Of a stretch of DNA of 64,000 nt, positions 1 to 64,000 are shown piece after piece. The notes beneath the pieces are model-generated. The model was not told the origin of the DNA, searched no databases, and was given only the letters and a program-made list of their open reading frames with translations. Both the position numbers and the translations under genes were made by a program. Source of the stretch: Sipunculus nudus (lineage: Eukaryota; Annelida; Sipuncula; Golfingiida; Sipunculidae); the NCBI GenBank assembly GCA_026874595.1, contig CM049317.1, forward strand, positions 42,370,401 to 42,434,400, read 5' to 3'. The first letter of the stretch is position 1; every line of letters begins with the position of its first letter.

Positions 1-1150
1 CTCTGCGTCCGTTTGTGCTTCTGTTTCACACATAAACCCACATATCTCGGGAACCGTTTGACGGATCAGGAAAATTTTTTTGCACAAATGTATCCCTTGA
101 AGAGCTTTATAACATACACAAAAAATGGTAGCGCCACCTGCAACCATGTTTGCACAGTGTCCATCTGTTCGTCTGCCTTGGGTTAAAATCACTCATATCT
201 CTGCAGTGATTTGTTTAATTCACCTGAAATTCGGCATGCGTATACATCCTGGATAGCTTTTCTGATTTTACGACAGGTGGCGCCACCTACATTCACGTTT
301 ACGCTGCCGACATCCAAGCTCATATCTCGGGAACCGTTTGACCGATTGGGCCAAAATTTTGCATGTGTATAGATCTCACATAGCTCTTTATCATACGCAA
401 AACTGGTGGCGCCACCTGCAGCCATTTTTGCACAGCTCCCGTCTGTTTGTTTGCCATGGGATAAAATCACTCATATCTCTGCAGTGATTTGACTAATTCA
501 CCTGAAATTCGGCATGCGTATACATCCTGGATAGCTTTTCTGATTTTATGACAGGTGGCGCCACCTACATTCACGTTTACGCTGCAGACATCCAAGCTCA
601 TATCTCGGGAACCGTTTGACCGATTGTGCCAAAATTTTGCATGTGTATAGATCTCACATAGCTCTTTATCATACGCAAAACTGGTGGCGCCACCTGCAGC
701 CATTTTTGCACAGCTCCCGTCTGTTTGTCTGCCATGGGATAAAATCACTCATATCTCGGCAGTGGTTTGACATATCTGCCTAAAATTTTGCAGGTTTATA
801 CATCCCCGACAGCTTTCTTGATTTTATGACAGGTGGCGCCACCTGCATTCAAGTTTATGCAGCAGACATCCAAGCTCATATCTTGGAAACTGTTTGACCG
901 ATTGGGCCAAAGTTTTGCATGTATATAGTTCTCATATAGCTCTTTATCATACGCAAAACTGGTGGCGCCACCTTCAACCATTTTTGCACAGCGTCCATCT
1001 GTTTGTCTGCCACGGGCTAAAGTCACTCATAAACATATAGTGGTTTGACTTATCTGCCTCAAATTTTGCATATGTATACAACTTGGATGGCTTTCTGGAT
1101 TTTGTGGTAGGTGGCGCAACCTACATACACCATTTGGCTGCAGACATCCA
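1..1150 (-). repeat. 278-bp tandem repeat (core of family K)
   Basis: About four units with a 278-bp period, the clearest being 189-466 and 467-744. Each unit carries two copies of the palindrome GGTGGCGCCACC about 130-145 bp apart. Units towards the 5' end (796-1150) are more diverged. Open frames of 76-93 codons recur once per unit, but 278 is not a multiple of three, so each is closed in the next unit. I regard them as non-coding. Confidence 0.85.
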
Positions 1151-1271
1151 TGCTAATATGCAACACTTCACTCTATTTCCCCTTGCCACTCAATCCATGC
1201 CTCACTTCATCCGTTCCACTCTGATTTAGGCGTATACACGTAGTCGCTTGTCGACTACCCGTATTCTAGTT
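1..1271 (-). mobile_element. Helentron-like non-autonomous element (HINE/pearl), family K, inverted, 3' part outside window
   Basis: The 5' end lies on the right, on the minus strand: AACTAG followed by a hairpin (GTAGTCG / CGACTAC, 1240-1258) and a variant of the GTATCCGCC subterminal repeat (here GTATACGCC). The rest is tandem repeat running off the left window edge. The same 5' end in plus orientation opens the copies at 17502 and 63170. The architecture is that of HINE/pearl elements, which transpose through an autonomous Helentron in trans. No Rep or helicase frame is present here. Confidence 0.8.
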
Positions 1272-1994
1272 ATACCATTGTTAGTTCTGTATGTGACCAT
1301 TACCTGTAAAAGATGATTAATTATTCTCACCTCTTTGTGACACACAACTCTCCTTGGTTTTGGCGCCTGTTGTTGAAGCTGGTACACTAGAAACAGAAAA
1401 GTCATGTAAGATATCTCACATCCATATTTAAATTCCACAGGGATTGACATCCTTGAGAGACAAACAGTGACCTGCTACGGCGGTCAGACATACAAATTAA
1501 AGCTGGCAAATTGACAAAGGCCTGTGTAGAACTGGGTTCTCAAACTTTGTCATCAAAATTTATTAATTAAAATAATAAAGTTATGTTTTCACAGAATGAA
1601 TCAATTACATTTATTGTTAAGTTAGATTTCATGATGCCAAAGAACCTTGAACAATTTGTAGAATGACTTCCTGAGTGCTCAAAATCATATTTTTTGCCTA
1701 CAGTCCTCAAAAAATAGGTTACAGTGACCTTATTAAGGCTTTCCAAGAAGATTTTACCAGAACCTCCCTGGATGTTGTGTTAGAAGATTCTAGGCCTAAT
1801 GGATACAATTTGTACCCATCTGACTCATTGGATACATAAAATCATGTTTTTAGCCAGCAGTTTGCAGAATATAGGTCACCATGACCTAGAGAGAAGTGGT
1901 TTTGATTAATATTAGAGCTCTGAAATGTAACAAAAGGATTTTAAGGCAAAAAAATTAATTATATGTGTCTTAGGCACCGCCTAAGTCATTTTAA
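1272..1994. other. Intergenic DNA with a decayed core-repeat relic
   Basis: No gene seen. From about 1690 to 1900 there are degraded relatives of the segment found intact near 6950 and 17150 (an IR3 palindrome followed by a conserved tract), so this is probably an old element fragment. A perfect AGGTCA-CCA-TGACCT palindrome lies at 1873-1887. Confidence 0.5.
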
Positions 1995-1995
1995 A

Positions 1996-2025
1996 CCCTC
2001 CCCCCCCCCCCCCCCCCCCCCCCCC
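1996..2025. repeat. Poly-C tract
   Basis: A run of cytosines, 25 or more uninterrupted after a single T at 1999. Such tracts are slippage-prone, and the exact length may be an assembly artefact. Confidence 0.95.
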
Positions 2026-3739
2026 GTGTCAAATGTTTTTATTGCCCAAGTGTCACATGGTAATCTTCTGATGTGCTTGATTGCTACTTAAACAAGTGAC
2101 CCATGGGTCATGACGCTCAGCTGCCAAGCATGACCTGTGACATCATGGAGATTCACAACTTCTAGTCAAATTTTGAAGAACCAATTTGTTGAAAATTTTC
2201 TATGACAACAGAAATATATATCACCTATGTCTGGTTAAAACACAGTGAATTGATGGTCTGAGGAAAATGCATGATTGTTAAGCTATCAGGAACTATTCCA
2301 ACAGCTTGCTTGAAACCTGTCAGTCTCAAAGGAACACCACAAAGGGCAAATATAAGATCAAAATATATAGCAAAAATCAAGGAAATACATGCAAGAATTA
2401 TTGAGAAACAGGTGCTTCTGCATGAATTTTTATTCAATACAAGCCAACTGTACTGCACTTTTATAAATGATGGTAATATTTATTCAGAAATATTTGACCC
2501 AATCCTTTACAAGATTACATAAATATACATCCAACTGCATGCACTTTAACTGTTCTTGAGATAATATGATCAAAAGGAATTAAAAGATGGTTGCCTGGTG
2601 GCCATATGGGACTTCTGACAAGTCTGAAATCAGACAACAAACATTCTCTAAATCGGACCAAACATGAAAGAAAAATTACTGAAACTGCACTGAAGAAAGA
2701 ATTTCTAAGGTGGCTAACTGGCAGACATAATGGATTTCTGACAAGTATGACATTTGATATCCCACATTCTCCAATAAGAGACCAAACTTGGGGCAAATTA
2801 TCCAGTAATGAATGCCCAAAATAATTCAAAAGGCATGTCCAGGCCCTCATATCAGATTTATAGATATGCAATTGTAAAAAGTGTAAGTCCAATATTTTTT
2901 ATTATCACTCTGCTTTTCAATGGGGTCAGCAGGGTAGGTAAACTGCCAAACCTGAAAGAAAAGAAATGCAGAAAGCATGACTAAGAGTCTTGAAATAAAA
3001 CAAAAAGCCATCCTAAATCAAGGTACACATCCACATATTATGAGAACAAACACTTGCTTTTATATGTGGTGATATATATTAAAATATTCAGATATCTAGG
3101 AAACTAAGTTTATTGCTAGGATTCCATAAAATAAACTGCAAAATGTTCCCATCATCTTATAAATCAGTAGCTAAACCTTAACACTTAACTCTCATAGTCT
3201 TAATGCCTGGCTGAAGTATTCCAACAACAGTGTTTTTGTTATGAAGTAACGAGGTACTTTATCACTGAGCCTTATCACTTAATAGGCTGATACAAAAGGG
3301 AGTCATATGTCACCAGTGTCACTCACAATTACAGCCACACAGGGAGATGTACCAGCTGGAGTGGGATGGTTATATATACAAGAAAAATAGAGATGGTCTA
3401 TAAAATAAGTAATTGTGAACATCCCTGACCTATGACCTTGGCCTTTTGCCCATATATCAACTGGATTCTTTCTAAATGATGGGTAACTACTAACCACTTA
3501 AATCTGGTGTAATTACTTGGCAACCAATGGGTGAATAACTTTGACCTGCAACCTTTAACCTGCTGACCAGCTGACCCCAAAATCAATAAGTTATTTATTC
3601 AAGCAAAAAGCCTCATAAATATGAAGTTTGAGTCAAACTGAGTGATGCATAGATGTGGCATATGTGAAAGACTGAAGGTTTGGGTTGAACAGTTACACTT
3701 GAAATATGCTCACAAGCATTTAGAACAATTGAATATTGT

Positions 3740-4185: not shown

Positions 4186-5469
4186 AAACAAGGGACCTAT
4201 GGGTCACGGCGCTCAGCTGTTATATATGATAAAAAAATATGATTTAGATATGATTCACGTGCTGGTTTTGTGTGGTAATAAATATAAGCTGTATTATGAG
4301 TTGTTGTTGTTTAGCTTATGTATGATTTTGATAGTATCTCTGGAGACAGGGAAGAGGATTGATTTCATTTATTTTATTAACAAATGGAGTACTATTGTCG
4401 CACATATTTTGACTTGGCCATATAACTTATAAGCAGAACATATAATATAAGAGTTTAACTATTAATTAAAAAAATTACAAATATTGTCCCAAATATAATT
4501 TTTATTAAAAATAATAAGAGAACCCTATGATTTTTTAAAATGAAATATAACTGAAATGATTATTAAAATAATATTAAAGAATATATTCATGAATGCATTA
4601 ATGAATACATTTGGAAAGTATTTGCACTGGTATTTTACCTGAATTCCCGTTCTGTATGCAAGAAATTTTATAATGGAGTACATATTCATATTCGTATTTA
4701 AATACAATTGCAAATTATTCGCACCATGTCGGGTATTTATTCAGTTTTCACCGAACAATGATGTTGAGTATCCAGAATATACAAAATAACAAATTTAAAT
4801 AATGATCATAAATAAGTACCTGGTTTTATGGCTTTTATTTATATTAAAAAAAATAAATGTAATATATTCATTTTGGATAAATTTCACATCGATGTACACA
4901 CTAGACACAGTAGGAATCTAGATTAATATTATCAACTGCATCTTTGTCCATCATTACTTTCCTTCATATGATCCCCAATCATTAGTAATAAATAATATGA
5001 TTTACTTTTTTATCATTAAAATTGAACTGAAAAGTACCATAGGTGACTGCATGGTGTTATTTGGAATACATGACATTCTGTCCATCGATACAAGATTCTT
5101 ATATCATCAGTAACTGCAAGTTAATTTCCTGTTATTATAAACTAACAAATTCCTTTTCTATTTTTCTTTAATTTGTTATTAAAAACTAATAAAAAATTAT
5201 TAATTTATTGTTTATTGTTATGTTGTTGGTTAAAACTACTAGATGAGTTGGGTTGGACACCTGGATCAACTGTGGCTGGCCATTATATAATAAGCTGCCT
5301 GGAGCCCAAGTTTATGCCTCCCCTCAAGCATGCATATTTTGCTGAAAGTTCAACAAGGTCAACATACAGGTGACTCAAGAGGGGCTGGAGAGGGCCAAGG
5401 TCTGACATGGTCTCATAGAAACATTTACAAAAGCTACAATTTTTGGCCAATTTCTTTCAGCTTTCTAAA

Positions 5470-6690
5470 CTAAAAAGCTGAAATCCTTATGTGTGCATGA
5501 CATGAAAATTATATCAACAGTGCTCACAGGAAACAAACGTGCCATGGTCAAAGTTGAGCAAAATTTAAGGTACTAATTTTATATTTATACTAATAACTTA
5601 TAAAATTTGAAAAATTCAGGACTAATTTTAGGTATTTAATTGAATCTTGATTAAATAATGTTACATCCCTGACAAAAAAATCTCTAGCTTCAGCAATCTC
5701 CTTGTTAAGGGAGTAAATATATTTCTTGATTTTTTACAAAGTGCATTATGTTTTGGCCCATAACTTAAAACAATTACGCAATACTGACATCATTTCTGGC
5801 ATGTGCATAGAGAATGTATAGAAAAATATGTATATTATATATGATTAAAGTCAGATCAGTTGTTTTGATATTAGGCAGTCTTGAAGTGTAAAAATGGGTT
5901 TTAAATGGAAAAATGAAGTTTTTCATTAATATCTCGAAGGTATTAAGTCCTAGTGACCAAATTCTTGGCATGGTAGGGGATTTTGGAGACATCTAATTTT
6001 ATGCCAAATTTAAGGAACTGAGAGCTGAAGCTGGGGAGCTGAGCTCTTGCAAACTGCATAACACTAGCTTTATGTAAACTTATGTTACATGGTGTTTGAA
6101 AACTCGAATAAAATCTACAGTTTTTGATCAACTGGTTTCAAATTTTTGGTGTTAACAGACAAAATGCTACCAAAAACATGCTGTGAAAATTAAATCCACA
6201 GTACTTACAGGAAAAAAACGTGCCATGGTCAAAGTTGGGCTAAATTTAAGGTACCAATTTTTTATTTTTGTTAATATTTTAAAAAATTTAAAAGATTTTG
6301 ATCTAATTTTGGGTATACAATTTAATTTTGATTAATTAAAGTTATATTACTGGAAAAAAAGTCCATAGCTTTAACATGTTTTGTGTTAAGTGATCAAATA
6401 TCTTTCCTGATTTTTTACAAAATGAAGTATGTTTGGGCCCATAACTTTTTTAAATTATATAATACAGACATAATTTCTGGCATGTACATAGGAACTATAT
6501 AGAGGAATATTTATGGTAAATATGAGGAAAAACAGATGAGTCGTTTTGATATTAGGCAGTCCTGAAGTGTGAAAATGGGTTTTTAATAAAAAATTGAGGT
6601 TTTTCCTTAATTTCTCAAAGGAACGAAGTCGCAAAGACCCAGTTTTCGGCTTGGTAGGAGATCTTGGGGACATCTAACATTATGCTGAAT
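5470..6690 (+). repeat. Approx. 670-bp tandem repeat, two units
   Basis: The two units start near 5500 and 6180. Each runs from a 'CTGTGAAAATTAAATC'-like stretch through GTGCCATGGTCAAAG, GGGCCCATAACTT and TGGCATGTACATAGG to TTGATATTAGGCAGTC. Diverged single units occur at 19250-19610, 20640-21060, 37046-37180, 43930-44400 and 44690-45200, so this core is a widespread dispersed repeat. Confidence 0.8.
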
Positions 6691-6732
6691 TTTGGATTCC
6701 TAGGTCTTACGGTTTCAAAACGTGCCAAATCT

Positions 6733-6783
6733 ACGGACGGACGGACGGACGGACGGACGGACGGACAGACGGACGGACGACGG
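6733..6783. repeat. (ACGG)n microsatellite
   Basis: About ten tetranucleotide copies with minor variants, just before the 3' stem-loop of the nested element. The same position holds such a repeat in most C, T and G family members. Confidence 0.95.
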
Positions 6784-6800
6784 ACAATGGACCATGACTA

Positions 6801-6831
6801 TAGCTCAGATGACTTATAGTCAGCTGAGCTA
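6801..6831 (+). other. 3'-terminal stem-loop, family C
   Basis: TAGCTCAG-A-TGACT pairs with AGTCA-G-CTGAGCTA around a TAT loop. The distal arm is the reverse complement of the 5' subterminal repeat. Sister stem-loops are at 7126-7157, 17313-17344, 26618-26649, 27521-27551, 35452-35482, 44487-44517, 45258-45287 and 59221-59251. Confidence 0.85.
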
Positions 6832-7851: not shown

Positions 7852-8653
7852 AACAAGAGCACCGCAAACATGCATAATACGCCCGTCGTGTATCTGGTGA
7901 CCTCTGACCTAATTAAATTTGCGTGAAATTTGATGAGAATGTAATTCAGGTGAGAAACAATTGGTAAATATGTATAAAGAATTTCATGTATATCCGTAGG
8001 ATTTTTGTAAGTAACCAAGGTACCTCCAAAGTGCAGCGACCTCTAGCCTCATTAAATTTGCATGAATTTTGATGAGAATGTAAATCAGGTGACAAAGTCT
8101 ACTGGTAAATATGTATAATGAGTTTCATGTATATCCATAGGATTTTTGTAAGTCACCAAGGTACCTCCAAAATATTGTGACATCTGACCTCAAATATGCA
8201 TGAATTTTGAAGAGAATAAAAATCACGTGAGAAAGTCTATTAGTAAATATGAATAATTAGTTTCATGAAAATCCACAGGACCACCAAGGTGCCTCTAAAG
8301 TGTGTTGACCTCTGACATCATTAAATATGCATAGATTTTGCTAGAATTCGAACTTAGGCGAACTATTTTATTGATTAACATTTCTGATGAGTTTTATGAA
8401 AATCCTTCATATTCCTCGTAAGTTATCACCGTGACACCACAAAGTAGCCAAATCCCGTGACCTTATTAAATATGCAGGGATGTTGCCAGTAATCAAACTT
8501 TGATGAGATAATCTCTTGGTAAGTACTTATGGTGAGTTTTGCAAAAATTCCATCAAAGCCCTGGTAAGTTATCAAGGCAACACTAAATGTTAATGGACGG
8601 ACGGACAGACGGTGCCAGTACCATTATACTCCCTTCATAAGACGGGCGTATAA
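7852..8653 (+). mobile_element. HINE family T (ATACGCCCGTC termini)
   Basis: The 5' end is AACAAG (7852) with subterminal ATACGCCCGTC (7877-7887). The 3' end is a short ACGG stretch (8594-8610) and an imperfect stem-loop (8626-8651) whose last 11 bases, GACGGGCGTAT, are the exact reverse complement of the 5' repeat. The core is about six diverged tandem units of roughly 110-130 bp, each with a 'GACCTCATTAAAT'-like start and 'CCAAGGTACCTCC'-like end. Confidence 0.8.
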
Positions 8654-8694
8654 AAAATGTTACATATTTCGAAGATCATAAACATACACATATA

Positions 8695-10016
8695 AACTAG
8701 ATATTTCTTGACACCGCAGGTGCCATAGTATCCCCAGACAATTAATCCCCCCCCCTTTAAGAATAGGCCCCCCATCTTCAGCAACAATTAATATCAGGCC
8801 ACACTCACAGAAAAGGTCATTCTCATAGAAAAGGTCATGATCCAAATTTCAATATACATCATCCCCTAGCCCATGTCTATGTATATATGCAAGAAATCTG
8901 TCCATTAGTTTTTGACTTATAATGCTCACAATACTGTTAAGTGGCAATGATGGGGTATTAAACGGCACAAAAACAAGTAAAAGAATAACAGGTGGCACCA
9001 CCTGTTTCCCGTACATGACAACACTATCCAAGATCTTCGTTCAAGTTGATTTTTGGACCAATCAATGCATCCCTTATTGAGAAATTAATGATTTTGTGTG
9101 ATTTTCACCATATATGGCAATATTCAAGGTCAAAGCCACTCATTGGAAAGGTCATGACCCCTATTGAAATAAACATTATCCTATAACCCATATCCATGTA
9201 TATGCATAATATGAAAGAAATTTGTCCATTAGTTTTTGACTTATAATGCTCACAGTACTGATAAATGGCAATGATGGGGTATTAAACGGCACAAAATAAG
9301 TAAAAGAATAACAGGTGGTGCCACCTGTTTCCGGTACATGACAATACTTTCCAAGATCTTCGAACATGTTGATTTTTGGACCAATGCATGCATCCCTTAT
9401 TGAGATATTAATGATTTTGTGTAATTTTCACCATATATGGCAATATTCAAGGTCAAGGCCACTCTAATAGGAAAGGTCATGACCCCAAGTTATATATACA
9501 TCATCCCATAACCCATGTCTATGTATATGCATAATATGAAAGAAATCTGTCCATTAGTTTTTGACTTATAATGCTCACAGGTTATAAATGTACTGTTAAG
9601 TGGCAATGATGGGGTATTAAACGGCACGAAAACAAGTAAAAGAATAACAGGTGGTGCCACCTGTTTCGAGTACATGACATTACTATCCAAGATCTTTGGT
9701 CAAGTTGATTTTTGGACCAATGCATGCATCCCTTATTGAGAAATTAATGATTTGTGTGATTTTCACCATATATGGCAATATTCAAGGTCAAGGCCACTCA
9801 TTGGAAAGGTCATGACCCCAATTTAAATAAACATCATCCCATAACCCATATCTATGTATTTGCATAATATGAAAGAAATCTGTCCATTAGTTTTTGACTT
9901 ATAATGCTCACAGTACTGTCAAGTAGCAATTTTGGGGATATTAAACGGCATGAAAACAAGCGGCGGCGCAACCGTGCCTAAACCATTGTAACTCCAGACT
10001 ATGTCTGGCGATACAA
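8695..10016 (+). mobile_element. HINE family P, short copy
   Basis: The 5' end is AACTAG with an imperfect hairpin (8710-8724) and GTATCCCCAGAC (8728-8739). The 3' end is a degraded CGG stretch (9960-9968) and a stem-loop (9988-10014) with GTCTGGCGATAC. The core is about four tandem units of 310-330 bp, each holding one GGTGG(C/T)(G/A)CCACC palindrome (near 8993, 9315 and 9650). Frames of 60-66 codons at 8849, 9176 and 9490 on the minus strand are one per unit and not genes. Confidence 0.8.
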
Positions 10017-10034
10017 TAATATATATATATATGT

Positions 10035-14949: not shown

Positions 14950-17346
14950 AACAAGTGACCCATGGGTCATGACGCTCAGCTGCCAAGGATGACCTGCGAC
15001 ATCATGGGCTGCAAATCACAACTTCTAGTAAAATTGTTGCAGAACCTATATGCCAATTTTCTTTAAACTTTCTACATTGCCATAAATTCTTATCATATAT
15101 GTCTGGTTAAAACATAGTGAATGATGGTCTGAGGCAAAATGTATGGTTGTTGAGCTATCAGGAACTAATCCCACAGCTTGCTCGATACCTGTCAGTCTCA
15201 AAAGGAATACCACACAGGCCACATATAAGATCAAAATATAGCAAAAGTTCAAGGAAATCCATGCAAGAATTATTGTGAAACGGTTGCTTCCATATTAATT
15301 TTTATTCAATACAAGCCAACTGTACTGAGCTTTCATAAATGATGGTCATATTTATTAAGAAATCTTTGACCCAATGCAAGATTACATTAATATACATTCC
15401 ACTGCATTCACTTTAATAGTTCTTGAGATAATATGTTCTAAAGGAATTTAAAGATGGTGACCTGGTGGCAATATTGGATTTCTGACAGGTAGGAAATTGA
15501 ACAACAAACATCCTCTAACAGGGACCAAACATCATAAAAAAATCACAGAAACTGTCCAGGCAAAAGGATTTCTAAAATGGCTACCTGGCAGACATAATGG
15601 TTTTCTGACAAGTCACACATCCTCCAATAAGACACTAAACTTGTAGCAATTGCTTCAACGAATGTAACAGTTATGAATGTCCAAAACAATTCAAAAGGCA
15701 TGATCAGGTTGGAGAGCTCTCATATCAGATTTATGAACATGCAAATGTAAAAAGTGCAAGTCAAATTTGTTTTAATTATCAGCTTGCTATTCAATGGGGT
15801 CAGCAGGGTAGGTAAACTGCAAAACCTAAAAGAAAAGAAATGTAGAAAGCATCACTAAGAGTCTTGTAATCAAATAAAGCCATCCTAAATCCAGGTACAG
15901 ACCCACATATTATCAGAACAAACACTTGCTGGTATATCTGATGATTTGCATAATAATATTCAGATATCTAGAAAACTAAGTTTATTGCTATGATTCCATG
16001 ATATAAACTGCAAAATGTTCCCATCATTTTATAAATCAGTAGCTAAACTTAACACTTAACTCTCATAGCCTTAATGCCTGGCCAAAGCATTCCGGCAACA
16101 GTGTTTTTGTTATGCACTAATGATATATCCTTATCACTCCATGAGCTGATACAAAAGGGAGTCATATATCACAAGTGTCACTGACAATTATGGGCACATA
16201 GTGAGATGTACCAGTTGTGAGTGCCATATGGTTATATATACAAGAAAACAAGAAAAATAGAGATGGTCTACAAAATAAGTTATTGTGAACATCCCTGACC
16301 TATGACCTTGGCCTTTTGCCAACATATAAACTGGATTCTTTCTAAAGATGGGTAACTACTAACCACTACTAACCACATCTGGCCGGGTGTAATTACTTGG
16401 CAACCAATGAGTGAATAACTTAGACCTGCAACCTTTAACCTCCTGACCAGCTGACCTCAAAATCAATTAGTTATTTCTTCATGCAAAAAGTTTGAATCAA
16501 ATTCAGTGATGCATAGATGTGGCATATGTGAAAGACTGAAGGTTTGGGTTGAACAGTTTCACTTGAAATATGTTCACAAGCATTTAGAACAAGATTGTGA
16601 CCTTGACCTTTGACCTTTTGAACTCAACATCAATAGGCTTCTTCTCCTATTGGTAGGTAAGCCATATATGACAGATGGAAAGTATAGATTGAAAAGTTTG
16701 CTGAAAATGACTCCACGCAAGAAGAGGGTGCTGTGAACTTGACCTTTGACCTCACAATCAACAGGTCTTTTCCCCTGTTGGCAGAGAAGCAATATCAGTG
16801 CTGAAAGGTTTGGAATGAAAGGTCTAGCTTGAAATGTGTCCACAACCTTTTCAAAGAAGTGACCTTTGACCTTGTGACCTCAACATCTATAGGATTCTTC
16901 TCCCACTTAGTAGGTGAGCTATATGTGAAAGATCAAAGAATTGGGATGAAAGGTTTGGCTTAAAATGCATCCTGAGGCTTTTCAAAGAAGTTTGTTCTGT
17001 GACCTTGACCTTTTACCTTGTGACCTCAAAATAATTTTGGTTCTACCCCTGTTGGTAGGTGAGCTGTATGTGAAAGATGGAAGGTTTGGGATGAAAATTT
17101 TGGCTAAAAGAATTATTTCTGGGGGGTGCAAACACACCCCATAACTTCGAGAATATAGGTCGCAGTGACCTAATTTCAGGTTTGCAAGGAGATCTTTTTA
17201 GAACCTCTAAGACTGCATAGGGTTCATGGCCCTACCGCCTATGGTTACGATTTGTGCCCTGCTAACGGCCGGACGGACAGACGGAAGGACGCCGGACAAA
17301 GACCCATCGCTATAGCCCAGCATGACTGAAAGTCAGCTGAGCTAAA
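14950..17346 (+). mobile_element. HINE family C, copy 2, uninterrupted
   Basis: The 5' end is AACAAG with TGACCCATGGGTCA (14956-14969) and GCTCAGCTG. The 3' end is an ACGG-like stretch (17265-17300) and a stem-loop (17313-17344). It is collinear with 2091-7159 apart from the 2.65-kb insertion there, and shows the empty site around 17026-17044. Parts of it also recur in inverse orientation at 24296-25400. Confidence 0.85.
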
Positions 17347-17501: not shown

Positions 17502-19018
17502 AACTAGAATACGGGTAGTCGACAAGCGACTACTTGTATCCGCCTAAATCAGAGTGGAACGGGTGAAGTGTTGCATATTAGCATGGATATTTTATCCCAT
17601 GGCAGACAAACAGATGGGAGCTGTGCAAACATGGCTGCAGGTGGCGCCACCAGTTTTGCGTATGATAAAGAGCTATGTGAGATTTATACACATGCAAAAT
17701 TTTGGCCCAATCGGTCAAACGGTTCCCTAGATATGAGCTTGGATGTCGCAGCGTAAACTTGATTGTAGGTGGCGCCACCTGTCATAAAATCAGAAAAGCT
17801 ATCCAGGATGTATAAGCATGCCAAATTTCAGGTGAATTAGTCAAACCACTGCAGAAATATGAGTGATTTTAACCCAAGGCAGACGAACAGATGGACACTG
17901 TGCAAACATGGTTGCAGGTGGTGCCACCATTTTCGGTGTATGTTATAAAGCTCTCCAAGGGCTACATTTGTGCAAAAAAATTTTCCTGATCGGTCAACAG
18001 TTCCTGAGATATGAGCTTGGATGTCTGCAGCGTAAACGTGAATGTAGGTGGCGCCACCTGTCATAAAATCAGAAAAGCTATCCAGGATGTATACGCATGC
18101 TAAATTTCAGGTGAATTAGTCAAGTCACTGCAGAGATATGAGTGATTTTAACCCAAGGCAGACAAACAGATGGACACTGTGCAAACATGGTTGCAGGTAG
18201 CGCCACCATTTTTGGTGTATGTTATAAAGCTCTCCAAGGGCTACATTTGTGCAAAAGAATTTTCCTGATCGGTCAAACGGTTCCTGAGATATGACTTTTG
18301 ATGTCTGCAGCGTAAACGTGAATGTAGGTGGCGCCACCTGTCATAAAATCAGAAAAGCTATCCAGGATGTATACGCATGCCCAATTTCAGGTGAATTAGT
18401 CAAGTCACTGCAGAGATATGAGTGATTTTAACCCAAGGCAGACGAACAGATGGACACTGTGCAAACATGGTTGCAGGTGGCGCCACCATTTTTGGTGTAT
18501 GTTATAAAGCTGTCCAAGGGCTACATTTGTGCAAAAGAATTTTCCTGATCGGTCAAACGGTTCCCAAGATATGAGCTTGGATGTCTGCAGCGTAAACGTG
18601 AATGTAGGTGGCGCCACCTGTCATAAAATCAGAAAAGCTATCCAGGATGTTTACGCATGCCCAATTTCAGGTGAATTAGTCAAGTCACTGCAGAGATATG
18701 AGTGATTTTAACCCAAGGCAGACGAACAGATGGACACTGTGCAAACATGGTTGCAGGTGGCGCCACCATTTTTGGTGTATGTAATAAAGCTCTCCGAGGG
18801 CTACATTTGTGCAAAAAAATTTTCCTGATCGGTCAAACGGTTCCCGAGATATGTGGGTTTATGTGTGGAAACAGACGCACAAACGGACGCAGAGCGCAAA
18901 GGAAAGGTCAGAGGTCAAAACAAAATCGGGGCGCAGCAGTTCACATGTGACCCGAACATAATCCCGGGTTTCGGAAAATTCCGCCCAGCGGTTACGGAGG
19001 AGTTCTCCGGACACCTAC

Positions 19019-19058
<40 letters not shown>

Positions 19059-19105
19059 CCAGCTGAAAACATAGTATCCGCAAAACTCTGTTTTGGCGGA
19101 TACAA
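17502..19105 (+). mobile_element. HINE family K, complete copy
   Basis: The 5' end is AACTAG, with hairpin GTAGTCG-acaag-CGACTAC (17515-17533) and GTATCCGCC followed by TAAATCAGAGT (17536-17555). The core is about 4.5 units of 278-280 bp with paired GGTGGCGCCACC palindromes. Near the 3' end is (GGC)n (19019-19057), then a stem-loop at 19074-19103 (GTATCCGC-AAAAC / GTTTT-GGCGGATAC, 3-nt loop). The last arm reads ACTCTGTTTTGGCGGATAC, matching the 5' subterminal repeat over about 20 bp. This is the best complete example of the family in the window. Confidence 0.88.
19019..19057. repeat. (GGC)n microsatellite
   Basis: Uninterrupted trinucleotide repeat just before the 3' stem-loop of the K element. 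The same position is used in P elements at 41595, 51230 and 53301. Confidence 0.95.
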
Positions 19106-20639
19106 TAAGCCCAGGAAGGTGCATGACAACACCACCTGGACAGTAACCTTGCCTGATGTTACAATGGTCTTCTAAAACCTATTCCGAAGTTTCAGTTTTT
19201 GATCAACAGCTTTCACATTTCAAATTATAAAAACTAAAAACCTTACCTATCCATAATATGAAAATTAAATGAACAGTGCTTGCATGAATAAAGTGCCCTG
19301 GCTAAAGATGGGCAAAATTTCAGGTTAGGATTTTACATTATATGCAAATAACTTAATGAAATTGCAAAATACTGATCTATTTTTTGGCATACAATTAAAC
19401 CTTAATTAAATACAGTTAGATCTATCTTGAAAAAGGTTTTCTAGCTTCAACAGTTATCATGTTAAGTAAGTGATATCTAACTTTGCTTTTCACAAGGTAC
19501 ATTATGATTATTTTGATGCCCAAACTTTTATAAATTACACAATACTGACCTAATTTTTGGCATGTACATAGGAAATATATGGAGGAATAGTTATGCAAAA
19601 TATAAAAATATAGGATTCATCTTGTTTACTGGGCCTGTTATTTGGAAGGGTTTTGGGGGAGGGGGATGAAGATTGATTCACAATTCTAAATTGCATCACC
19701 ATTTATCCCTAATTTTGTAAGATAACAACATATTATGCATACACATGTACTTATTTTTACCACAAAAATATATATATTTTTTTTAATTTCCAAACAAATA
19801 GATATATGATAACATTACTTGATTGAGAATTTACAATTTTAAATTGCACCTTTATTTATCCATAGTTTGGCTAATATATAATCAAATTATGCTTCTTGAA
19901 GGGTTTAATTATATTTTAATTTGTTTAATTTTTTTAAAAGGAAATTAATTTCTTTAAAAATGTTACATTACCACAACATTGCATTATGGATTACTCCTTG
20001 ATTTCGAGCAGTTTTGTACAATGGAGTGGAAACAGCTTTACAATTAAGGAAATACATTTTAAACAATAACAACTAGAAAATGTCCAGAGGACTGTATCCC
20101 CTGCCAAAAGGGAATGTGAGAAACGTGTACGGACACCATTAAACACACATGTACACACACACCTTCACAGTCACAGGACTGACTGAAAACACTTAGAGCA
20201 GGTTTAATAAGAGAACCTATTCCGTTGCCAATATGGAAAGTGACTTATAGGTTGCACCTACTATCTAATTGATCTAGAAGTAGATCCAAATAAAATTTTT
20301 TTTAGAAATAGTCTCGAAGAAACATGTTGCAGTTTGGTAGGAGATCTTTGGGAAATCTAACAGTATGCCAAATTTTGGATTTGTAGGTCCAATGGTTTCA
20401 AAACATGCCAGATGTGATATGAGAATAACTTTAAACCTGTCACAGCAGGGGATTTCCCCCAGTGACTGTAACTCATCAGGAACCCTGGCTTAGCTGATTT
20501 CCAGAGACCAGGAGTTAGTTGTCTGCATCTGGACAAACAAAGACACTACAATAGAGCCTCAAGAAAAAATTAAAAAACTAGCCCAATTTTCAAGCTTTTA
20601 TTTTTTCAAATTTCAGATTAAAACAAACTCAATATGTAT
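19106..20639. other. Decayed repeat fragments, no gene
   Basis: 19250-19610 is a diverged unit of the 670-bp core. Near 20076 AACTAGAAAATGTCC is followed by AGAGGAC and GTATCCCCTGCC, which has the form of a HINE 5' end with a weak hairpin. No matching 3' end (GGCAGGGGATAC) was found. 20280-20410 is another fragment of the core's 3' part. Confidence 0.5.
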
Positions 20640-21821: not shown

Positions 21822-23794
21822 AAATATGATTTAGGAATGAGGCATATGCTGGTTTGGTGTGGTAATAAATATAAGCTTTATTATGAGTTGTTGGTGTTTA
21901 GCTTATGTATGATTATGATATTAGCTTTGGAGACAGGGAAGAGGATTGATTTCATTTATTTTATTAACAAATGGAGTACTATTGTCATACAGATTTTGAC
22001 TTGGCCATATAACTTATAAGCAGAACATATGATATAAGAGTTTAACTATTTATGAAAAAAAATTACAAATATTGTCCCAAATATAATTTTTATTAAAAAT
22101 AATAAGAGAATCTTATGATTTTTTAAAAAATGAAATATAATGAAATGATTATTAAAATAATATTAAAGAATATATTCATGAATGCATTCATGAATACATT
22201 TTGAAAGTATTTGCACTGGTATTCATATACTTTCATTTTTACCTGAATTCCAATTCTTTATGCAAGACATTTTATAATGGAGTACATATTCATATTCGTA
22301 TTTAAATACAATTGCAAAGTTTTCCCACCATTACTGGCATTTATTCAGTTTTCACCAAACAATGATGTTGAGAATCCAGAATATACAAAATTCACACATT
22401 TAAATTATGATCAAAAGTACCTGGTTTTATGGCTTTAATTTATATTAAAAAAAAAATGTGATATATTCATTTTGGACTTATTTCACTAATCAATGTACAC
22501 ACTAGACACAGTAGAAATCTAGATTAATAATATCAACTGCATCTTTGTCTTTCATTAATTTCCTTCATATGATCCCTAATGATTAGTAATGAATAATATG
22601 ATTTACTTTTTTATCATTAAAATTGAACTGAAAAATACCATAGGTGACTGCATGGTGTTATTTGGAGTATGTGACATTCTATCCATCTATACAAGATTCT
22701 TTTATCATCAGTAACTGCAAGTTGATTTCCTGTTATTATAAACTAAAAAATTCTTTTTTATTTTTCTTTAATTTGTTATTAAAAAACAATAAAAATTTAT
22801 TAATTTATTGTTAATTGTTATGTTGTTGGTTAAAACTACTAGATGAGTTGGGTTGGACACCTGGATCAACTGTGGCTGGCCATAAGCTGCCTACCTGCAA
22901 CAGTGTATGGCTCGCCTCAAGCATGCATAATTTGCTGAAAGTTCAACAAGGTCAACATACTGGTGACTCAAGAGGGGCTGGAGAGAGTTAAGGTCTGACA
23001 TGGTCTCATAAAAACATTAATAAAAGCTACAATTTTTGGCCAATTTCTTTCAGCTTTCTAAACTTAAAAGCTGAAATCCTTGTGTGCATGACATGAAAAT
23101 TATATCAACCGTGCTCACAGGAAACAAATGTGCCATGGTCAAAGTTGGGCAAAATTTAAGGTACTAATTTTATATTTATACTAATAACATATAAAATTTG
23201 AAAAATTCAGGACTAATTTGGGGTATTCAATTGAATCTTGATTAAATAATGTTACATCCCTGGCAAAAAAACTCTAGCTTCAGCAATCCCCTTGTTAAGG
23301 GAGTAAATATATTTCTTGATTTTTTACATAGTGCATTATGTTTGGGCCCATAACTTAAAACAATTACGCAATACTGACATCATTTCTGGCATATGCATAG
23401 AGAATGTATAGAAAAATATGTATATTATATATGATTAAAGTCACATCAGTGGTTTTGATATTAGGCAGTCTTGAAGTGAAACAATGGGTTTTTAATGGAA
23501 CAAGTGACCCATGGGTCATGATGCTCAGCTGACTTGGAAGAGATTTGCAAAAGTAAATTTTATCATCTGAATGGTAGTATATAACCATTGAACTGAAGCA
23601 TCAAACAGATTAACCAACAGGCTGAGATTGTGTCTGTATTAATATATCTCAAGAATAGAGAAAAAATGTGTAAACTTTAAAAAAAATACATGTGGCTCCA
23701 CCAGTCTGCAGAAACTAATAAAAACACTTAATGGTCAATATCCATGCAAAGAAGCATGGTGGTCTCTGGATTAGTTGTTTAGATACTTCAGCTG

Positions 23795-23880
23795 GTAGTC
23801 GACCAGATGGCCGAAACCCAGAATGCAGAAACTCAGAATACCGAACCCAAAATGCCGAAGCCCATCTTGCCGAAAAAGAA
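23795..23880. repeat. Degenerate CCGAAACCC-type short repeat
   Basis: Repeated 12-14-bp pieces such as GGCCGAAACCCAGAATGC, ATACCGAACCC and ATGCCGAAGCCC. Non-coding in appearance. Confidence 0.7.
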
Positions 23881-24009
23881 AATAAATAATAGCAAATAAT
23901 GTGATTATTGCACAGTAAAGTGATAAATCCGTTGTCTGTTAAGGTATTTTAACAAAAGTTGATACCATCCTCAAATATTTTCAAATAATTAACGGTAATT
24001 TATTTGGCA

Positions 24010-24295
24010 TGTCGGCAGCGGCACTACTATAATATCGGCAATGACAACCCGGTCCTGCTAAGTGTCCATGGCTATATTAGACCCTCGTTTTGCAGGTATA
24101 GTCTGACTAACTGATTTTCATGTAGAAAGTTATATCTTGGGTCACATTTATGCTTCTTTGTGAACTATTTTTTTTTTAATTTACACATCGTTCAACTGCA
24201 TATTAGCCAAGATGGCGGCGGTCGCATGGGGAACTCACGGGAGCGTAGCGGCACTCGAAATCGGCAAGGAAACCGAAGTTATGGGGTGTGTATGT
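24010..24295 (+). other. Non-repeat fragment with YY1-like motif and 41-codon frame
   Basis: AAGATGGCGGC (24209-24219) matches the YY1 consensus and overlaps the ATG at 24212. The frame reads MAAVAWGTHGSVAALEIG and continues about seven residues before it enters the inverted core repeat, closing at 24337. The segment is richer in GC than its surroundings and has no copy elsewhere in the window. It could be a captured promoter plus first exon of a host gene. No family is recognised. Confidence 0.35.
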
Positions 24296-38375: not shown

Positions 38376-38539
38376 AACTAGACATTTCTTGGCACCACAG
38401 GTGCCAGAGTATCCCCAGACATAGTAGGCCCCCACCCCCTTTATAAATAGACCCCCATTTTTAGCAGCATATACTGACACTTGGCATATTCATTGTTTCT
38501 TCCATCTAACAATCCACAATCTTGTTAAAGATGTTGGTC

Positions 38540-40950
38540 CTGTGACCTTGATCTTTTTAAAGATGTGTCCTGTGACCTTGACCTCTCTTGGCAGGTGAAC
38601 TATATGTGCAAGATGAAAGATCTGAGATGAAATGTTTGGCTGAAAATGCATCCACATCTTTTTTTAAGGTGTGTCCTGTGACCTTGACCTTTGACCTCAT
38701 GACCCCAAAATCAAATCTGGTCTTGCTTTTCCAATGGGACATATGCAAGTTAAGTTTGAAATCTATACATCAATAAAGCAGGAATTATCACCCAGAAACT
38801 AATTTTTGGACAGATGGCTCCTGTGACCTTCACCTTTGACCTTGTGACCTCAAAATTGATAGTGTTCTTCCTCTCTTGGAAGGAGAACTATATGTGCAAG
38901 ATGAAAGATCTGAGATGAAATGTCTGGATGAACATGCATCCACATCTTTTTAAAGATGTGTCCTGTGACCTTGACCTTTGACCTCATCACCCTAAAATCA
39001 ATTTGGGTCTTGCTTTTTCAATGGGACATATACAAGTCAAGTTTGAAATCCATACATCAATAAAAGCAGGAACTATCATCCAGAAACTAATTTTTGGACA
39101 GATGGCTCCTGTGACCTTCACCTTTGACCTTGTGACCTCAAAATTGATAGGGTTCTTCCTCTCTTGGCAGGTGAACTATATGTGCAAGATGAAAGATCTG
39201 AGATGAAATGTTTGGATGAAAATGCATCCACATCTTTTTAAAGGTGTGTCCTGTGACCTTGACCTTTGACCTCATAACCTCAAAATCAATTTGGGTCTTG
39301 CTTTCCAATGGGACATATACAAGTCAAGTTTGAAATCTATACATCAGTAAAAGCAGGAATTATCATCCAGAAACTAAATTTTGGACTGATGGCTCCTGTG
39401 ACCTTCACCTTTGAACTCACAATTGATAGGGGTCTTCTACTCTTGGCAGGTGAACTATATGTGCAAGATGAAAGATCTGAGATGAATTGTTTGGCTGAAA
39501 ATGCATCCACAATCTTTTTAAAAAGGTTTCCTGTGACCTTGACCTTTGACCTCATGACCCCAAAATCAATTCAGGTCTTGCTTTTCCAAAGGGTCAAATA
39601 CAAGTCGAGTTTGAAATCCATACATCAATAAAAGAAGGAATTATCATCCAGAAACTAATTTTTGGACAGATGGCTCCTGTGACCTTCACCTTTGACATTG
39701 TGACCTCAAAATTGATAGGGTTCTTCCTCTCTTGGCAGGTGAACTATATGTGCAAGATGAAAGATCTGAGATGAAATGTTTGGCTGAAAATGCATCCACA
39801 TCTTTTTAAAGGTGTGTCCTGTGACCTTGACCTTTGACCTCATAACCTCAAAATCAATTTGGGTCTTGCTTTTCCAATGGGACATATACAAGTCAAGTTT
39901 GAAATCCATACATCAATAAAAGCAGGAATTATCATCCAGAAACTAATTTTTGGACAGATGGCTCCTGTGACCTTCACCTTTGACCTTGTGACCTCAAAAT
40001 TGATAGGGTTCTTCCTCTCTTGGCAGGTGAACTATATGTGCAAGATGAAAGATCTGAGATGAAATGTTTGGCTGAAAATGCATCCACATCTTTTTAAAGG
40101 TGTGTCCTGTGACCTTGACCTTTGACCTCATAACCTCAAAATCAATTTGGGTCTTGCTTTTCCAATGGGACATATACAAGTCAAGTTTGAAATCCATACA
40201 TCAATAAAAGCAGGAATTATCATCCAGAAACTAATTTTTGGACAGATGGCTCCTGTGACCTTCACCTTTGACCTTGTGACCTCAAAATTGATAGGGTTCT
40301 TCCTCTCTTGGCAGGTGAACTATATGTGCAAGATGAAAGATCTGAGGTGAAATGTTTGGCTGAAAATGCATCCACATCTTTTTAAAGATGTGTCCTGTGA
40401 CCTTGACCTTTGACCTCATAACCTCAAAATCAATTTGAGTCTTGCTTTTCCAATGGGACATATACAAGTCAAGTTTGAAATCCATACATCAATAAAAGAA
40501 GGAATTATCATCCAGAAACTAATTTTTGGACAGATGGCTCCTGTGACCTTCACCTTTGACCTTGTGACCTCAAAACTGATAGGGGTCTTTCTCTATTGGC
40601 AGATGACTCACATGTGCAAGATGAAAGGTCTGAGATGAAATGTTTGGCTGAAAATGCATCCACAATCTTTTTAAAGATGTGTCCTGTGACCTTGACCTTT
40701 GACCTCATGACCCCAAAATCAATTGGAGTCTTGCTTTTTCAATGGGACATATATAAGTCAAGTTTGAAATCAATACATCAATAAAAGCAGGAATTATCAT
40801 CCAGAAACTAATTTTTGGACAGATAGCTCCTGTGGCCTTGACCTTTGACCTTTTGACCCCAAAAGGTATATGGATCATCCACTACTGGCAAGTGAGCTAC
40901 ATATTCAAGATGGAAGACCTAAGATGAAAGTTTGGCTTAAAATGCATCCA
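38540..40950 (+). repeat. 288-bp tandem array with DR1 nuclear-receptor sites
   Basis: Units at exactly 288 bp (for example 39706, 39994 and 40282) are almost identical. Each has two clusters of half-sites. One reads, on the minus strand, AGGTCA-A-AGGTCA-AGGTCA. The other has AGGTCA-CA-AGGTCA-A-AGGTGA-AGGTCA. Open frames of 61-107 codons in both strands repeat with the unit and are not genes, although 288 is divisible by three. Confidence 0.88.
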
Positions 40951-41594
40951 CAGTATCTTTTAAAATGCCAGTCCAGTGACCTTGACCTTTGACCTCATGA
41001 CCCTAGAACCTATAGGGTTCTTACTTTAGTGGTGGGCCATACATAAGTCATGTTTGAAATCCATATGGCTATCAACACTGGAGATATCATAAGAGGTATG
41101 TGATTTTCACCATATATGGCAATATTCAAGGTCAAGGCCACTATCATAGGAAAGGTCATGACCCCAATTTAAATAAACATCATCCCATAACCCATACCTA
41201 TGTATATGCATAATATAAAAGAAATCTGTCCATTAGTTTTTGATTTATAATGCTCACAGTACTGTAAGGTGGCAATTTAAGGGGTATTAAACGGCACAAA
41301 AACAAGTAAAGAATAATAGGTGGCGCCACCAGTTTCTGGAACATGACAACCCTATCCATGATCTTCCATCAACTTGATTTTGGGATAAATCCATGCAAGA
41401 TTTCTTGAGATATTAAAGAATTTGTGTGATTTTCCCCAAAATTGGACCTATTCAAGGTCAAGGACACTCTCCTAGTGAAGGTCATGACCTCATTTTAAAT
41501 AGGCGTCGTCCTCTCACCCATATTTATACATATACCAAGTTTGGTAAAGTTCCGTGAAATATTTTTTGGGTTATCGTGCCAACAAGATTTATAT

Positions 41595-41617
41595 GCGGCG
41601 GCGGCGGCGGCGGCGGG
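41595..41617. repeat. (GCG)n microsatellite
   Basis: Seven trinucleotide copies preceding the P-family 3' stem-loop. Confidence 0.95.
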
Positions 41618-41663
41618 ACCGGTATGAAAACATAGTATCCCCCGACTTTGTCTGGGGATACAA

Positions 41664-48106: not shown

Positions 48107-51100
48107 AACTAGACATTTCTTGGCACCGCAGGTGCCAGAGTATCCCCAGACATAGTAGGCCCCCACCCCCTTTATAAATAGACCCCCATTTTTAGCAGCA
48201 TATACTGACATTTGGCAAATTCATTGTTTCTTCCATCTAACAATCCACAATCTTGTTAAAGATGTTGGTCCTGTGACCTTGATCTTTTTAAAGATGTGTC
48301 CTGTGACCTTGACCTGTGACCTCATGACCCCAAAATCAAATCTGGTCTTGCTTTTCCAATGGGACATATGCAAGTTAAGTTTGAAATCTATACATCAATA
48401 AAGCAGGAATTATCACCCAGAAACTAATTTTTGGACAGATGGCTCCTGTGACCTTCACCTTTGACCTTGTGACCTCAAAATTTATAGTGTTCTTCCTCTC
48501 TTGGCAGGAGAACTATATGTGTAAGATGAAAGATCTGAGATGAAATGTTTGGATGAAAATGCATCCACATCTTTTTAAAGATGTGTCCTGTGACCTTGAC
48601 CTTTGACCTCATCACCCCAAAATCAATTTGGGTCTTGCTTTTCCAATGGGACATATACAAGTCAAGTTTGAAATCCATACATCAATAAAAGCAGGAATTA
48701 TCATCCAGAAACTAATTTTTGGACAGATGGCTCCTGTGACCTTCACCTTTGACCTTGTGACCTCACAATTGATAGGGGTCTTCCACTCTTGGCAGGTGAA
48801 CTATATATGCAAGAGGAAAGATCTGAGATGAATTGTTTGGCTGAAAATGCATCCACAATCTTTTTAAAGAGGTTTCCTGTGACCTTGACCTTTGACCTCA
48901 TGACCCCAAAATCAATTCAGGTCTTGCTTTTCCAATGGGTCAAATTCAAGTCAAGTTTGAAATCCATACATCAATAAAAGCAGGAATTATCATCCAGAAA
49001 CTAATTTTTGGACAGATGGCTCCTGTGACCTTCACCTTTGACCTTGTGACCTCACAATTGATAGGGTTCTTCCTCTCTTGGCAGGTGAACTATATGTGCA
49101 AGATGAAAGATCTGAGATGATATGTTTGGATGAAAATGCATCCACATCTTTTTAAAGGTGTGTCCTGTGACCTTGACCTTTGACCTCATAACCTCAAAAT
49201 CAATTTGGGTCTTGCTTTTCCAATGGGACATATACAAGTCAAATTTGAAATCTATACATCAGTAAAAGCAGGAATTATCATCCAGAAACTGAATTTTGGA
49301 CTGATGGCTCCTGTGACCTTCTCCTTTGACCTTGTGACCTCACAATTGAAAGGGGTCTTCTACTCTTGGCAGGTAAACTATATGTGCAAGATGAAAGATC
49401 TGAGATGAATTGTTTTGCTGAAAATGCATCCACAATCTTTTTAAAAAGGTTTCCTGTGACCTTGACCTTTGACCTCATGACCCCAAAATCAATTCAGGTC
49501 TTGCTTTTCCAAAGGGTCAAATACAAGTCGAGTTTGAAATCCATACATCAATAAAAGAAGGAATTATCATCCAGAAACTAATTTTTGGACAGATGGCTCC
49601 TGTGGCCTTGACCTTTGACCTTGTGACCTCAAAATTGATAGGGTTCTTCCTCTCTTGGCAGGTGAACAATATGTGCAAGATGAAAGATCTGAGATGAATT
49701 GTTTTGCTGAAAATGCATCCACAATCTTTTTAAAAAGGTTTCCTGTGACCTTGACCTTTGACCTCATAACCTCAAAATCAATTTGGGTCTTGCTTTTCCA
49801 ATGGGACATATACAAGTCAAGTTTGAAATCCATACATCAATAAAAGCAGGAATTATCATCCAGAAACTAATTTTTGGACAGATGGCTCCTGTGACCTTCA
49901 CCTTTGACCTTGTGACCTCAAAATTGATAGGGTTCTTCCTCTCTTGGCAGGTGAACTATATGTGCAAGATGAAAGATCTGAGATGAAATGTTTGGCTGAA
50001 AATGCATCCACAACTTTTTAAAGGTGTGTCCTGTGACCTTGACCTTTGACCTCATAACCTCAAAATCAATTTGGATCTTGCTTTTCCAATGGGACCTATA
50101 CAAGTCAAGTTTGAAATCCATACATCAATAAAAGCAGGAATTATCATCCAGAAACTAATTTTGGACAGATGGCTCCTGTGACCTTCACCTTTGACCTTGT
50201 GACCTCAAAACTGATAGGGGTCTTCCTCTATTGGCAGATGACTTACATGTGCAAGATGAAAGGTCTGAGATGAAATGTTTGGCTGAAAATGCATCCACAA
50301 TCTTTTTAAAGATGTGTCCTGTGACCTTGACCTTTGACCTCATGACCCCAAAATCAATCTGAGTCTTGCTTTTTCAATGGGACATATATAAGTCAAGTTT
50401 GAAATCAATACATCAATAAAAGCAGGAATTATCATCCAGAAACTAATTTTTGGACAGATAGCTCCTGTGGCCTTGACCTTTGACCTTGTGACCTCACAAT
50501 TTATATGGATCATCCACTCTTGGCAGGTGAACTATATATGCAAGATGGAAGACCTAAGATGAAAGTTTGGCTTAAAATGCATCCACAGTATCTTTTAAAA
50601 TGCCAGTCCAGTGACCTTGACCTTTGACCTCATGACCCTAGAACCTATAGGATTCTTACTTTAGTGGTGGGCCATCCATAAGTCATGTTTGAAATCCATA
50701 TGGCTATCAACACTGGAGATATCATAAGAGGTGTGTGATTTTCACCATATATGGCAATATTCAAGATCAAGGCCACTATCATAGGAAAGGTCATGACCCC
50801 AATTTAAATAAACATCATCCCATAACCCATACCTATGTATATGCATAATATAAAAGAAATCTGTCCATTAGTTTTTGACTTATAATGCTCACAGTACTGT
50901 AAGGTGGCAATTTTGGGGGTATTAAACGGCACAAAAACAAGTAAAGAATAATAGGTGGCGCCACCAGTTTCTGGAACATGACAACCCTATCCATGACCTT
51001 CCATCAACTTGATTTTGGGATAAATCCATGCAAGATTTCTTGAGATATTAAAGAATTTGTGTGATTTTCCCCAAAATTGGACCTATTCAAGGTCAAGGAC

Positions 51101-51230
51101 ACTCTCCTAGTAAAGGTCATGACCTCATTTTAAATAGGCGTCGTCCTCTCACCCATATCTATACATATACCAAGTTTGGTAAAGTTCCGTGAAATATTTT
51201 TTCGGTTATGGTGCCAACAAGATTTATATG

Positions 51231-51261
<31 letters not shown>

Positions 51262-51337
51262 GGCGGTGGTGGCGACGGCGGCGGTGGCGGGACCAGTATG
51301 AAAACATAGTATCCCCCGACTTTGTCTGGGGATACAA
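48107..51337 (+). mobile_element. HINE family P, long copy (left half of a composite)
   Basis: The 5' end is AACTAG, with a hairpin (48122-48136) and GTATCCCCAGAC (48140-48151). The 288-bp core has about eight units, then a GGTGGCGCCACC segment (50956-50967). It ends with (GCG)n-type repeat (51230-51291, with GTG and GAC variants) and a stem-loop (51309-51335). It is nearly collinear with 38376-41663. Confidence 0.88.
51230..51291. repeat. (GCG)n microsatellite, interrupted
   Basis: About 20 trinucleotides with GTG and GAC variants. It gives Arg- or Pro-rich shadow frames on the two strands. Confidence 0.95.
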
Positions 51338-53301: not shown

Positions 53302-53332
<31 letters not shown>

Positions 53333-56685: not shown

Positions 56686-56689
56686 AAAT

Positions 56690-59253: not shown

Positions 59254-59254
59254 A

Positions 59255-62477: not shown

Positions 62478-62575
62478 GCATCTATATATTAATATCATAA
62501 CGGGATTTGTGTGATTTTCCGTATCTCCGGATTTTCTATGGATTTACGATACCACCGTACGGATTGTTGTGTCAT
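62478..62575 (+). repeat. Direct repeat, right copy
   Basis: Partner of 61060-61140. Confidence 0.65.
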
Positions 62576-62984
62576 CCCAAACCGTGCGTAGCACAGTTAT
62601 ATGCTAGTAAGTTCAACTCAATAGTCTTACTATTAAATATGTTTAGATAAAAAGTGTTACAGGAGGGACATCAAATTTATACACTAATAAGACAATAAAA
62701 TAAGTCACAAACCTTAAATATGCCATGGACTATTGAAAATCAAGGCACAGTATATTTCTTTTTAGAATTTAATATGAGGAATTTGTCAAATTTGCCAAAA
62801 GAATATCTATGGAGGACCGTTACAGGTGAGACAAAGGCTGGTAATGCTATTTACTTTTACAACAGTTAAATTTTAATATTCCTCTTTACTGATGAATTTT
62901 ATGGTGAGTAAATGCTATAAAATAATCTGCAAATGTTTCTGATAATTCTGATGAAAAGTTGCAGCAGTTAATTTAATACAAGGC
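62576..62984. other. No gene seen
   Basis: AT-rich spacer. Confidence 0.5.
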
Positions 62985-63105
62985 CTAAAGGCCTAATGCA
63001 TACCTGTGCAATGAGATTACACCAGGTATAATGCTTCAATGCTGGAGCATTACTTTTCAAGAACATGTGTAACATGTATATGAACAATGCAAGTACTAAA
63101 CACTT
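62985..63105 (+). repeat. Dispersed repeat, copy 2
   Basis: Partner of 10160-10255. It includes a small inverted pair AATGCTTCAATGC / GGAGCATT that the first copy lacks. Confidence 0.6.
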
Positions 63106-63169
63106 AGAACAAGAAATGATTTAACAAACATCACTGCTGAAATTCTGGCATGGGTGCATACAACACAAA

Positions 63170-64000
63170 AACTAGAATATGGGTAGTCAACAAGCGACTG
63201 TGTATCCGCCAAAATCAGAGTGGGACGGGTGAAGTGAGGCATGGTTTGAGTGGCAAGGGGAAATAGAGTGAGGTGTGTTGCATAATAGCCTGGATGTCTG
63301 CAGCCGAAATGTGTATGTAGGTAGCGCCACCTACCACAAAATCCAGAAAGCTGTCCAAGTTGTATACATATGCAAAATTTTAGGCAGATTAGTCAAACCA
63401 CTACTTGTATATGAGTGAGTTATCCCACAGCAGACAAACAGAAGGACGCTGTGCAAAAATGGTGGCAGGTGGCGCCACAAATATTGTGTATGATTGAGAG
63501 CTATGTAAGATCTATACACATGCATAATTTCAGGGGGATATGTCAAACCAGTCCTGAGATATAAGCCTGAATGTCTGCAGCATACACATAAATGTAGGTG
63601 GCGCAACATGCCATATAATCCAGAAAGCTATCCAAGATGTATAAACATGCAAAATTTTATGCAGATAAGTCAAACCACTACTGAGATATGAGTGATTTTA
63701 GCCCACGGCAGACAAACAGACGGACGCTGTGCAAAAATGGTGGCAGGTGGCACCACCAATTTTGGGTATAATAAAAAGCTATGTAAGAACTATACACATG
63801 CAAAATTTTGGCCTGATTGGTCAAACAGTTTCCAAGATATAAGCTTGGATGTCTGCAGCATAAACATGAATGTAGGTGGCGCCACTTGTCATAAAATCAA
63901 GAAAGCTGTCCAGGATGTATACACATGCAAAATTTCTGGTGGATGGGTCCAACCAATGCAGAGATATGATTTCCCAAGGCAGATGAACAGATGGACACCG
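63170..64000 (+). mobile_element. HINE family K, 5' part
   Basis: The 5' end is AACTAG, with a weakened hairpin (63183-63200) and GTATCCGCC (63202-63210). About 2.5 diverged 278-bp units follow, with GGTGGCGCCAC-type palindromes (some altered to GGTAGCGCCACC or GGTGGCACCACC). It runs off the window, so the 3' end is not seen. Confidence 0.85.

Follow-up and report, generated by a model that had tools for sequence, protein, structure and literature searches.

Terminal families with paired ends

Do neighbouring repeats whose terminal sequences differ belong to one class of transposon, and what moves them? The question is raised by a 64,000-nucleotide stretch of the Sipunculus nudus genome (C12:42370401-42434400 of 1.43 Gb in 153 contigs; hereafter the window), in which a sequence-only reading had seen at least six families built on one HINE-type plan. 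Five terminal families, A, C, K, G and T, recur in the window, family A probably being the one previously called P. Their end sequences are C GTATCCCCAGAC, G ATGCCCCCGCC, T ATACGCCCGTC, K GTATCCGCC and A GCTCAGCTGAC. In all five, an arm X accompanies AACWAG and a palindrome at one end, and the other end is a hairpin closing with an arm that is reverse-complementary to X.

To measure this arrangement against chance, we scanned the window for hairpins in which the last arm has its reverse complement 0.15-7 kb away. The scan returned 12 matches, whereas 20 Markov shuffles gave 0.05 on average and never more than 1; this bears out the proposal of a common plan. Families A, C and G were found in this way, and inspection of the sequence added K and T; the exact arm matches reported for G and T were both located. 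In a pairing matrix, the complementarity of 5' and 3' arms scored 10-14 when both came from one family and mostly 4-8 when they came from different families. That arms of unrelated sequence have stayed complementary points to selection on pairing, and Bao and Jurka remarked likewise on selection for ATIR pairing (PMC3627910).

AACWAG by itself occurs 68 times in the window when 83 occurrences are expected, and we rejected it as a motif enriched in its own right; it is informative only at family ends. The one candidate judged for a further family, H, lies at 54113 and consists of AACTAG and a hairpin with no convincing paired arm. It has 5 copies genome-wide and was dropped, so that this candidate is not a large family and H is not confirmed.

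Autonomous Helentrons carrying the same ends

We searched the genome for Rep/helicase/endonuclease elements with matching ends. At least 143 matches to the Rep family PF14214 occur in the genome. A Pfam scan of the proteins of two Helentron lineages revealed DUF6570, Helitron_like_N (Rep), PIF1 helicase and Exo_endo_phos endonuclease domains, that is, the Rep, PIF1-type helicase and C-terminal AP endonuclease that mark an autonomous Helentron; one protein additionally contains an OTU domain. The A-type 3' end, TCAGCTGAGC-NNN-TGRCCCATGGGYCA-CTWG-TT, is present in at least half of 30 loci retrieved with the C-terminus of one Helentron, about 0.5-1 kb downstream of the endonuclease ORF and in the orientation of that ORF. 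Pairwise homology between A-type copies ends at CTWGTT. At the other end, the copies on C9 and C10 are 98% identical from TTTTTAGCTCAGCTGAC, the hairpin and the GTCC tract onwards, and the flanks before this point are unrelated; the C10 element is ~15.7 kb long. Two G-type Helentrons (C3:41767078 and C5:20312028), with 94% identical protein, are nearly identical up to GGGGGCATTCGTGTCGTTCCGACACATCTAGTTT, ~0.3 kb past the stop codon, where unrelated flanks begin, in agreement with the G element of the window. The 5.9 kb upstream of the Rep domain yielded no 5' end of the G Helentron. Hence both ends for A, seen on full-length autonomous Helentrons, and the 3' end for G, are common to the window families and to an element encoding Rep, helicase and endonuclease.

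In a further lineage, N (on C7), the ends GCTTGCCGGAA / TTCCGGCAAGC-palindrome-CTTG-TT are paired and separated by about 24-25.5 kb, the element-level boundaries of this pair coming from one element, and Rep is encoded on the opposite strand. A search for termini within 17-18 kb around four Helentrons located the 3' end of one (H17) alone. Group-1 Helentrons were considered as partners of C, K and T and set aside, the one with located ends carrying the new type N. About 45 Helentron loci yielded no autonomous partner whose ends match C, K or T. At one locus (L055, 305-2630), a complete C element is nested beside the 3' end of an A-type Helentron.

Orientation and anatomy of the window elements

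The sequence-only reading had placed AACWAG at the 5' end and the stem-loop at the 3' end. In the autonomous Helentrons found in this genome, the stem-loop marks the 5' end, and the 3' terminus, CTWG-TT, reads as AACWAG on the complementary strand; the proposed polarity is therefore reversed. In published HINE and Helitron2 elements, the 5' ATIR lies beside the 5' end and pairs with a downstream IR, and the 3' ATIR precedes a separate palindrome (PMC3627910, PMC4067079, PMC7492417); in oyster HINEs, a GTCC/GTCY microsatellite follows the 5' ATIR/IR module (PMC7492417). When the window elements are read in the reverse direction, their (CGG)n and (ACGG)n tracts become CCG and GTCC tracts after a 5' hairpin, and AACWAG becomes CTWGTT-3'. 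Judged by the order of these parts, the window families fit the published layout only if the direction is reversed.

If the original polarity were nevertheless correct, the elements would represent an inverted variant of the Helentron plan. Such a polarity is self-consistent as long as the autonomous elements are left aside; however, the CTWG end is the 3' end of the coding strand in the A and G Helentrons, and the layout and GTCC microsatellite agree with published 5' modules only after reversal, leaving the inverted variant very unlikely. Since Rep is oppositely oriented in lineage N, the coding strand alone is no proof of polarity, and the argument rests on the order of the ATIRs. With the polarity corrected, AACWAG is unsuitable as a 5' signal in searches.

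In their true orientation the window elements lie mostly on the minus strand, as follows.

23499..26649, minus strand: A-family HINE; 3' CTTG-TT at 23499; T-run/ATIR hairpin of the 5' end at 26649; further 5' end at 27551
33135..35482, minus strand: A-family HINE; 337-bp central repeats at 33421-35405
4187..6831, minus strand: A-family HINE; second 5' end at 7157
14950..17344, minus strand: A-family HINE
28234..30300, minus strand: G-family HINE; sits in a 337-bp monomer; 180-bp central repeats
38376..41663, minus strand: C-family HINE; 288-bp central repeats
48107..51337, minus strand: C-family HINE; additional upstream 5' end at 53387
8695..10018, minus strand: C-family variant HINE; 323-bp central repeats
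17502..19107, minus strand: K-family HINE; 280-bp central repeats
63170..64000, minus strand: K-type element; 3' terminus, 5' part outside the window
1..1271, plus strand (opposite orientation): K-type element; 278-bp repeats and 3' terminus, 5' part outside the window
7852..8654, minus strand: T-family HINE; 138-bp central repeats
32365..32405, minus strand: C-family 3' terminus; matching 5' end not found
2091..2124, minus strand: A-family 3' terminus, remnant

The subterminal repeats (5' and 3' ATIR) are paired in a family-specific manner, as the pairing matrix shows, and the 5' module contains the hairpin of the 5' ATIR with its adjacent IR, followed by the microsatellite; the T hairpin is imperfect. 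A palindrome between the 3' ATIR and the 3' terminus is present in A, C, K and G, while in T the scan passed no clear stem at this position. Doubled 5' ends for a single 3' end are seen in the window at 48107-53387, 23499-27551 and 4187-7157, and autonomous Helentrons also show an internal second 5' end (loci L057-L060).

Insertion sites

For three insertions, the joined flanks align to uninterrupted copies within the window. The flanks of the A element at 23499-26649 match 58268-58426 at 97% over 159 bp and 5829-5989 at 96%, those of the A element at 4187-6831 match 16950-17105 at 90% identity over 156 bp, and the empty sites of the G element at 28234-30300 are intact monomers, for example 35026-35174 (85%). 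In the best case the empty site reads TTTTT and the filled site TTTT/TAGC...CTTGT/T (slashes marking the boundaries), with no duplication. Insertion into a T-run or TT with no target duplication was thus observed at three empty sites of families A and G, and the duplication typical of cut-and-paste transposition is absent from these sites.

This bears on whether the families could be MITEs that move by cut-and-paste and have short inverted repeats, the description first given to pearl elements. Short inverted repeats do lie close to both ends and the copy number is high, but the ends are asymmetric, the three empty sites lack a target duplication, and elements encoding Rep and helicase carry the same ends, which contradicts a MITE origin and makes it exceedingly improbable. 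Nor are these canonical Helitron1 elements, which begin with 5' TC, end with 3' CTRR, insert between A and T and lack an ATIR, because they have a 5' T-run and an ATIR, a 3' CTWG (CTTG rather than CTRR) and T-rich targets.

Taken together, the anatomy, the duplication-free empty sites and the autonomous Helentrons with the same termini support the HINE assignment made by the earlier reading: very probably, the families, with their lineage-specific paired ATIRs in a common layout, are HINEs, short non-autonomous forms, carrying no genes, of the Helitron2-type rolling-circle transposons known as Helentrons.

Abundance and arrangement in the genome

Genome-wide pattern searches, whose counts vary with the mismatch limit, gave 21,979 3' ends for A, 14,098 for K, 4,545 for G and 2,128 for N (2 mismatches each), 1,665 for C (exact) and 469 for T (3 mismatches); mirrored-control patterns gave 0 throughout. 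There are 37,533 A 5' ends, an excess over 3' ends that fits the doubling of 5' ends, the 5' and 3' patterns being of unequal stringency.

Close to the end of C1, A-family 5' ends form long runs of the same orientation, almost all on one strand at 96416-1029141 and all on the opposite strand at 1250337-2230539. On the same contig, at 105182948-105207135 and 64761022-64777638, N-family 3' ends recur each 1.7-7 kb on a single strand, resembling the head-to-tail multimers expected of rolling-circle copying. At C1:63713999-63743320, C-type 3' ends occur four times at 9.76-kb spacing, that is, a tandem 9.76-kb unit.

A palindrome in the central repeats

The cores of the families had been described as unrelated. 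This holds for most of the monomers, but those of A, C and K have in common a 12-bp palindrome, GGTGGCGCCACC, with 44 near-matches in the window as against 0.04 expected (sites include 276-287, 17640-18767, 34120-36817, 41319, 50954 and 53025). The exact sequence AGGTGGCGCCACCT occurs 41,727 times genome-wide, and its mirror control 0 times. Descent of the A, C and K monomers from a common ancestor found no support outside the palindrome, alignment being seen only among the C variants and two single-copy relatives. The palindrome was not found in the literature searched. Speculatively, and with rather low probability, it may be a shared functional site, for instance one bound by a host or Helentron protein, which would make satellite arrays good Helentron cargo.

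Probable sequence-matched partners within a common layout

In the true orientation, each HINE begins with a 5' T-run, an ATIR that forms a hairpin with its downstream partner, a GTCC- or CCG-type microsatellite and central tandem repeats; there follow a 3' ATIR whose sequence complements that of the 5' ATIR, a distinct palindrome, CTWG and a T. By analogy with known Helitrons, the Rep/helicase/endonuclease of each lineage would nick both the T/5' end and CTWG-T, one strand would be copied by rolling circle, and pairing of the 5' and 3' ATIRs together with the 3' palindrome may mark termination. The ATIR is the lineage-specific, sequence-matched pair, with the T...CTWG-T boundary and the layout common to all lineages. 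Going by shared termini, gene-carrying elements with family A and G ends could move the HINEs of those families.

The sequence-only reading had instead suggested that one or a few autonomous Helentrons mobilise several families through recognition of a structure, which would here comprise the 5' hairpin, the paired arms, the 3' palindrome and CTWG-T, and not of a sequence. Lineages with unrelated ATIRs do share the plan and CTWG-T, and the lack of a C-, K- or T-ended partner among the Helentron loci would also be accommodated. However, A and G are each matched in end sequence by a separate Helentron lineage, and lineage N has a third ATIR, so that recognition of structure finds no support where it is testable and, as an account of all families, seems to us unlikely; it may apply to C, K and T only. 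Since the A and G HINEs carry the sequences of their Helentrons, we favour sequence-matched partners within a common layout.

Relation to known elements

Described elements resemble those of the window in many respects. Cg_HINE of the Pacific oyster (PMC7492417), likened here by description, has a 5' subTIR with a complementary IR and a GTCY/GTCC microsatellite, satellite-like central repeats, a 3' subTIR and palindrome, and T-rich targets with no target duplication; that paper could relate Cg_HINEs to no autonomous element, whereas two families here have partners with the same ends. HINE/DINE-1 elements and Helentrons (Thomas et al. 2014, PMC4067079) likewise show subTIRs, a 3' stem-loop, TT insertion and a Rep/helicase/endonuclease partner with common ends, Rep being reversed in some; the ATIR sequences differ, and large arrays and doubled 5' ends distinguish the elements described here. 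Helitron2 (Bao and Jurka, PMC3627910) shares the ATIRs, whose pairing is preserved by compensatory changes, the hairpins at both ends and the 5' T, but its proteins were described without an endonuclease (PMC4067079), which the partners here possess. Pearl/CvA-type bivalve elements (PMC5139131, PMC11136912) are also alike by description, with modular ends flanking short satellite arrays.

The HINE kind itself is known. For satellite-bearing HINEs of the Pacific oyster, no tie to an autonomous element could be made (PMC7492417), and a separate study likewise detected no autonomous partner (PMC7992393); the value of the present families lies in the link between HINEs and Helentrons within one genome, which was beyond the reach of the oyster studies. 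The presence in one genome of two abundant HINE families together with Helentrons of the same ends provides defined end pairs, with which it becomes testable which machine moves which family, and whether it recognises sequence or structure.
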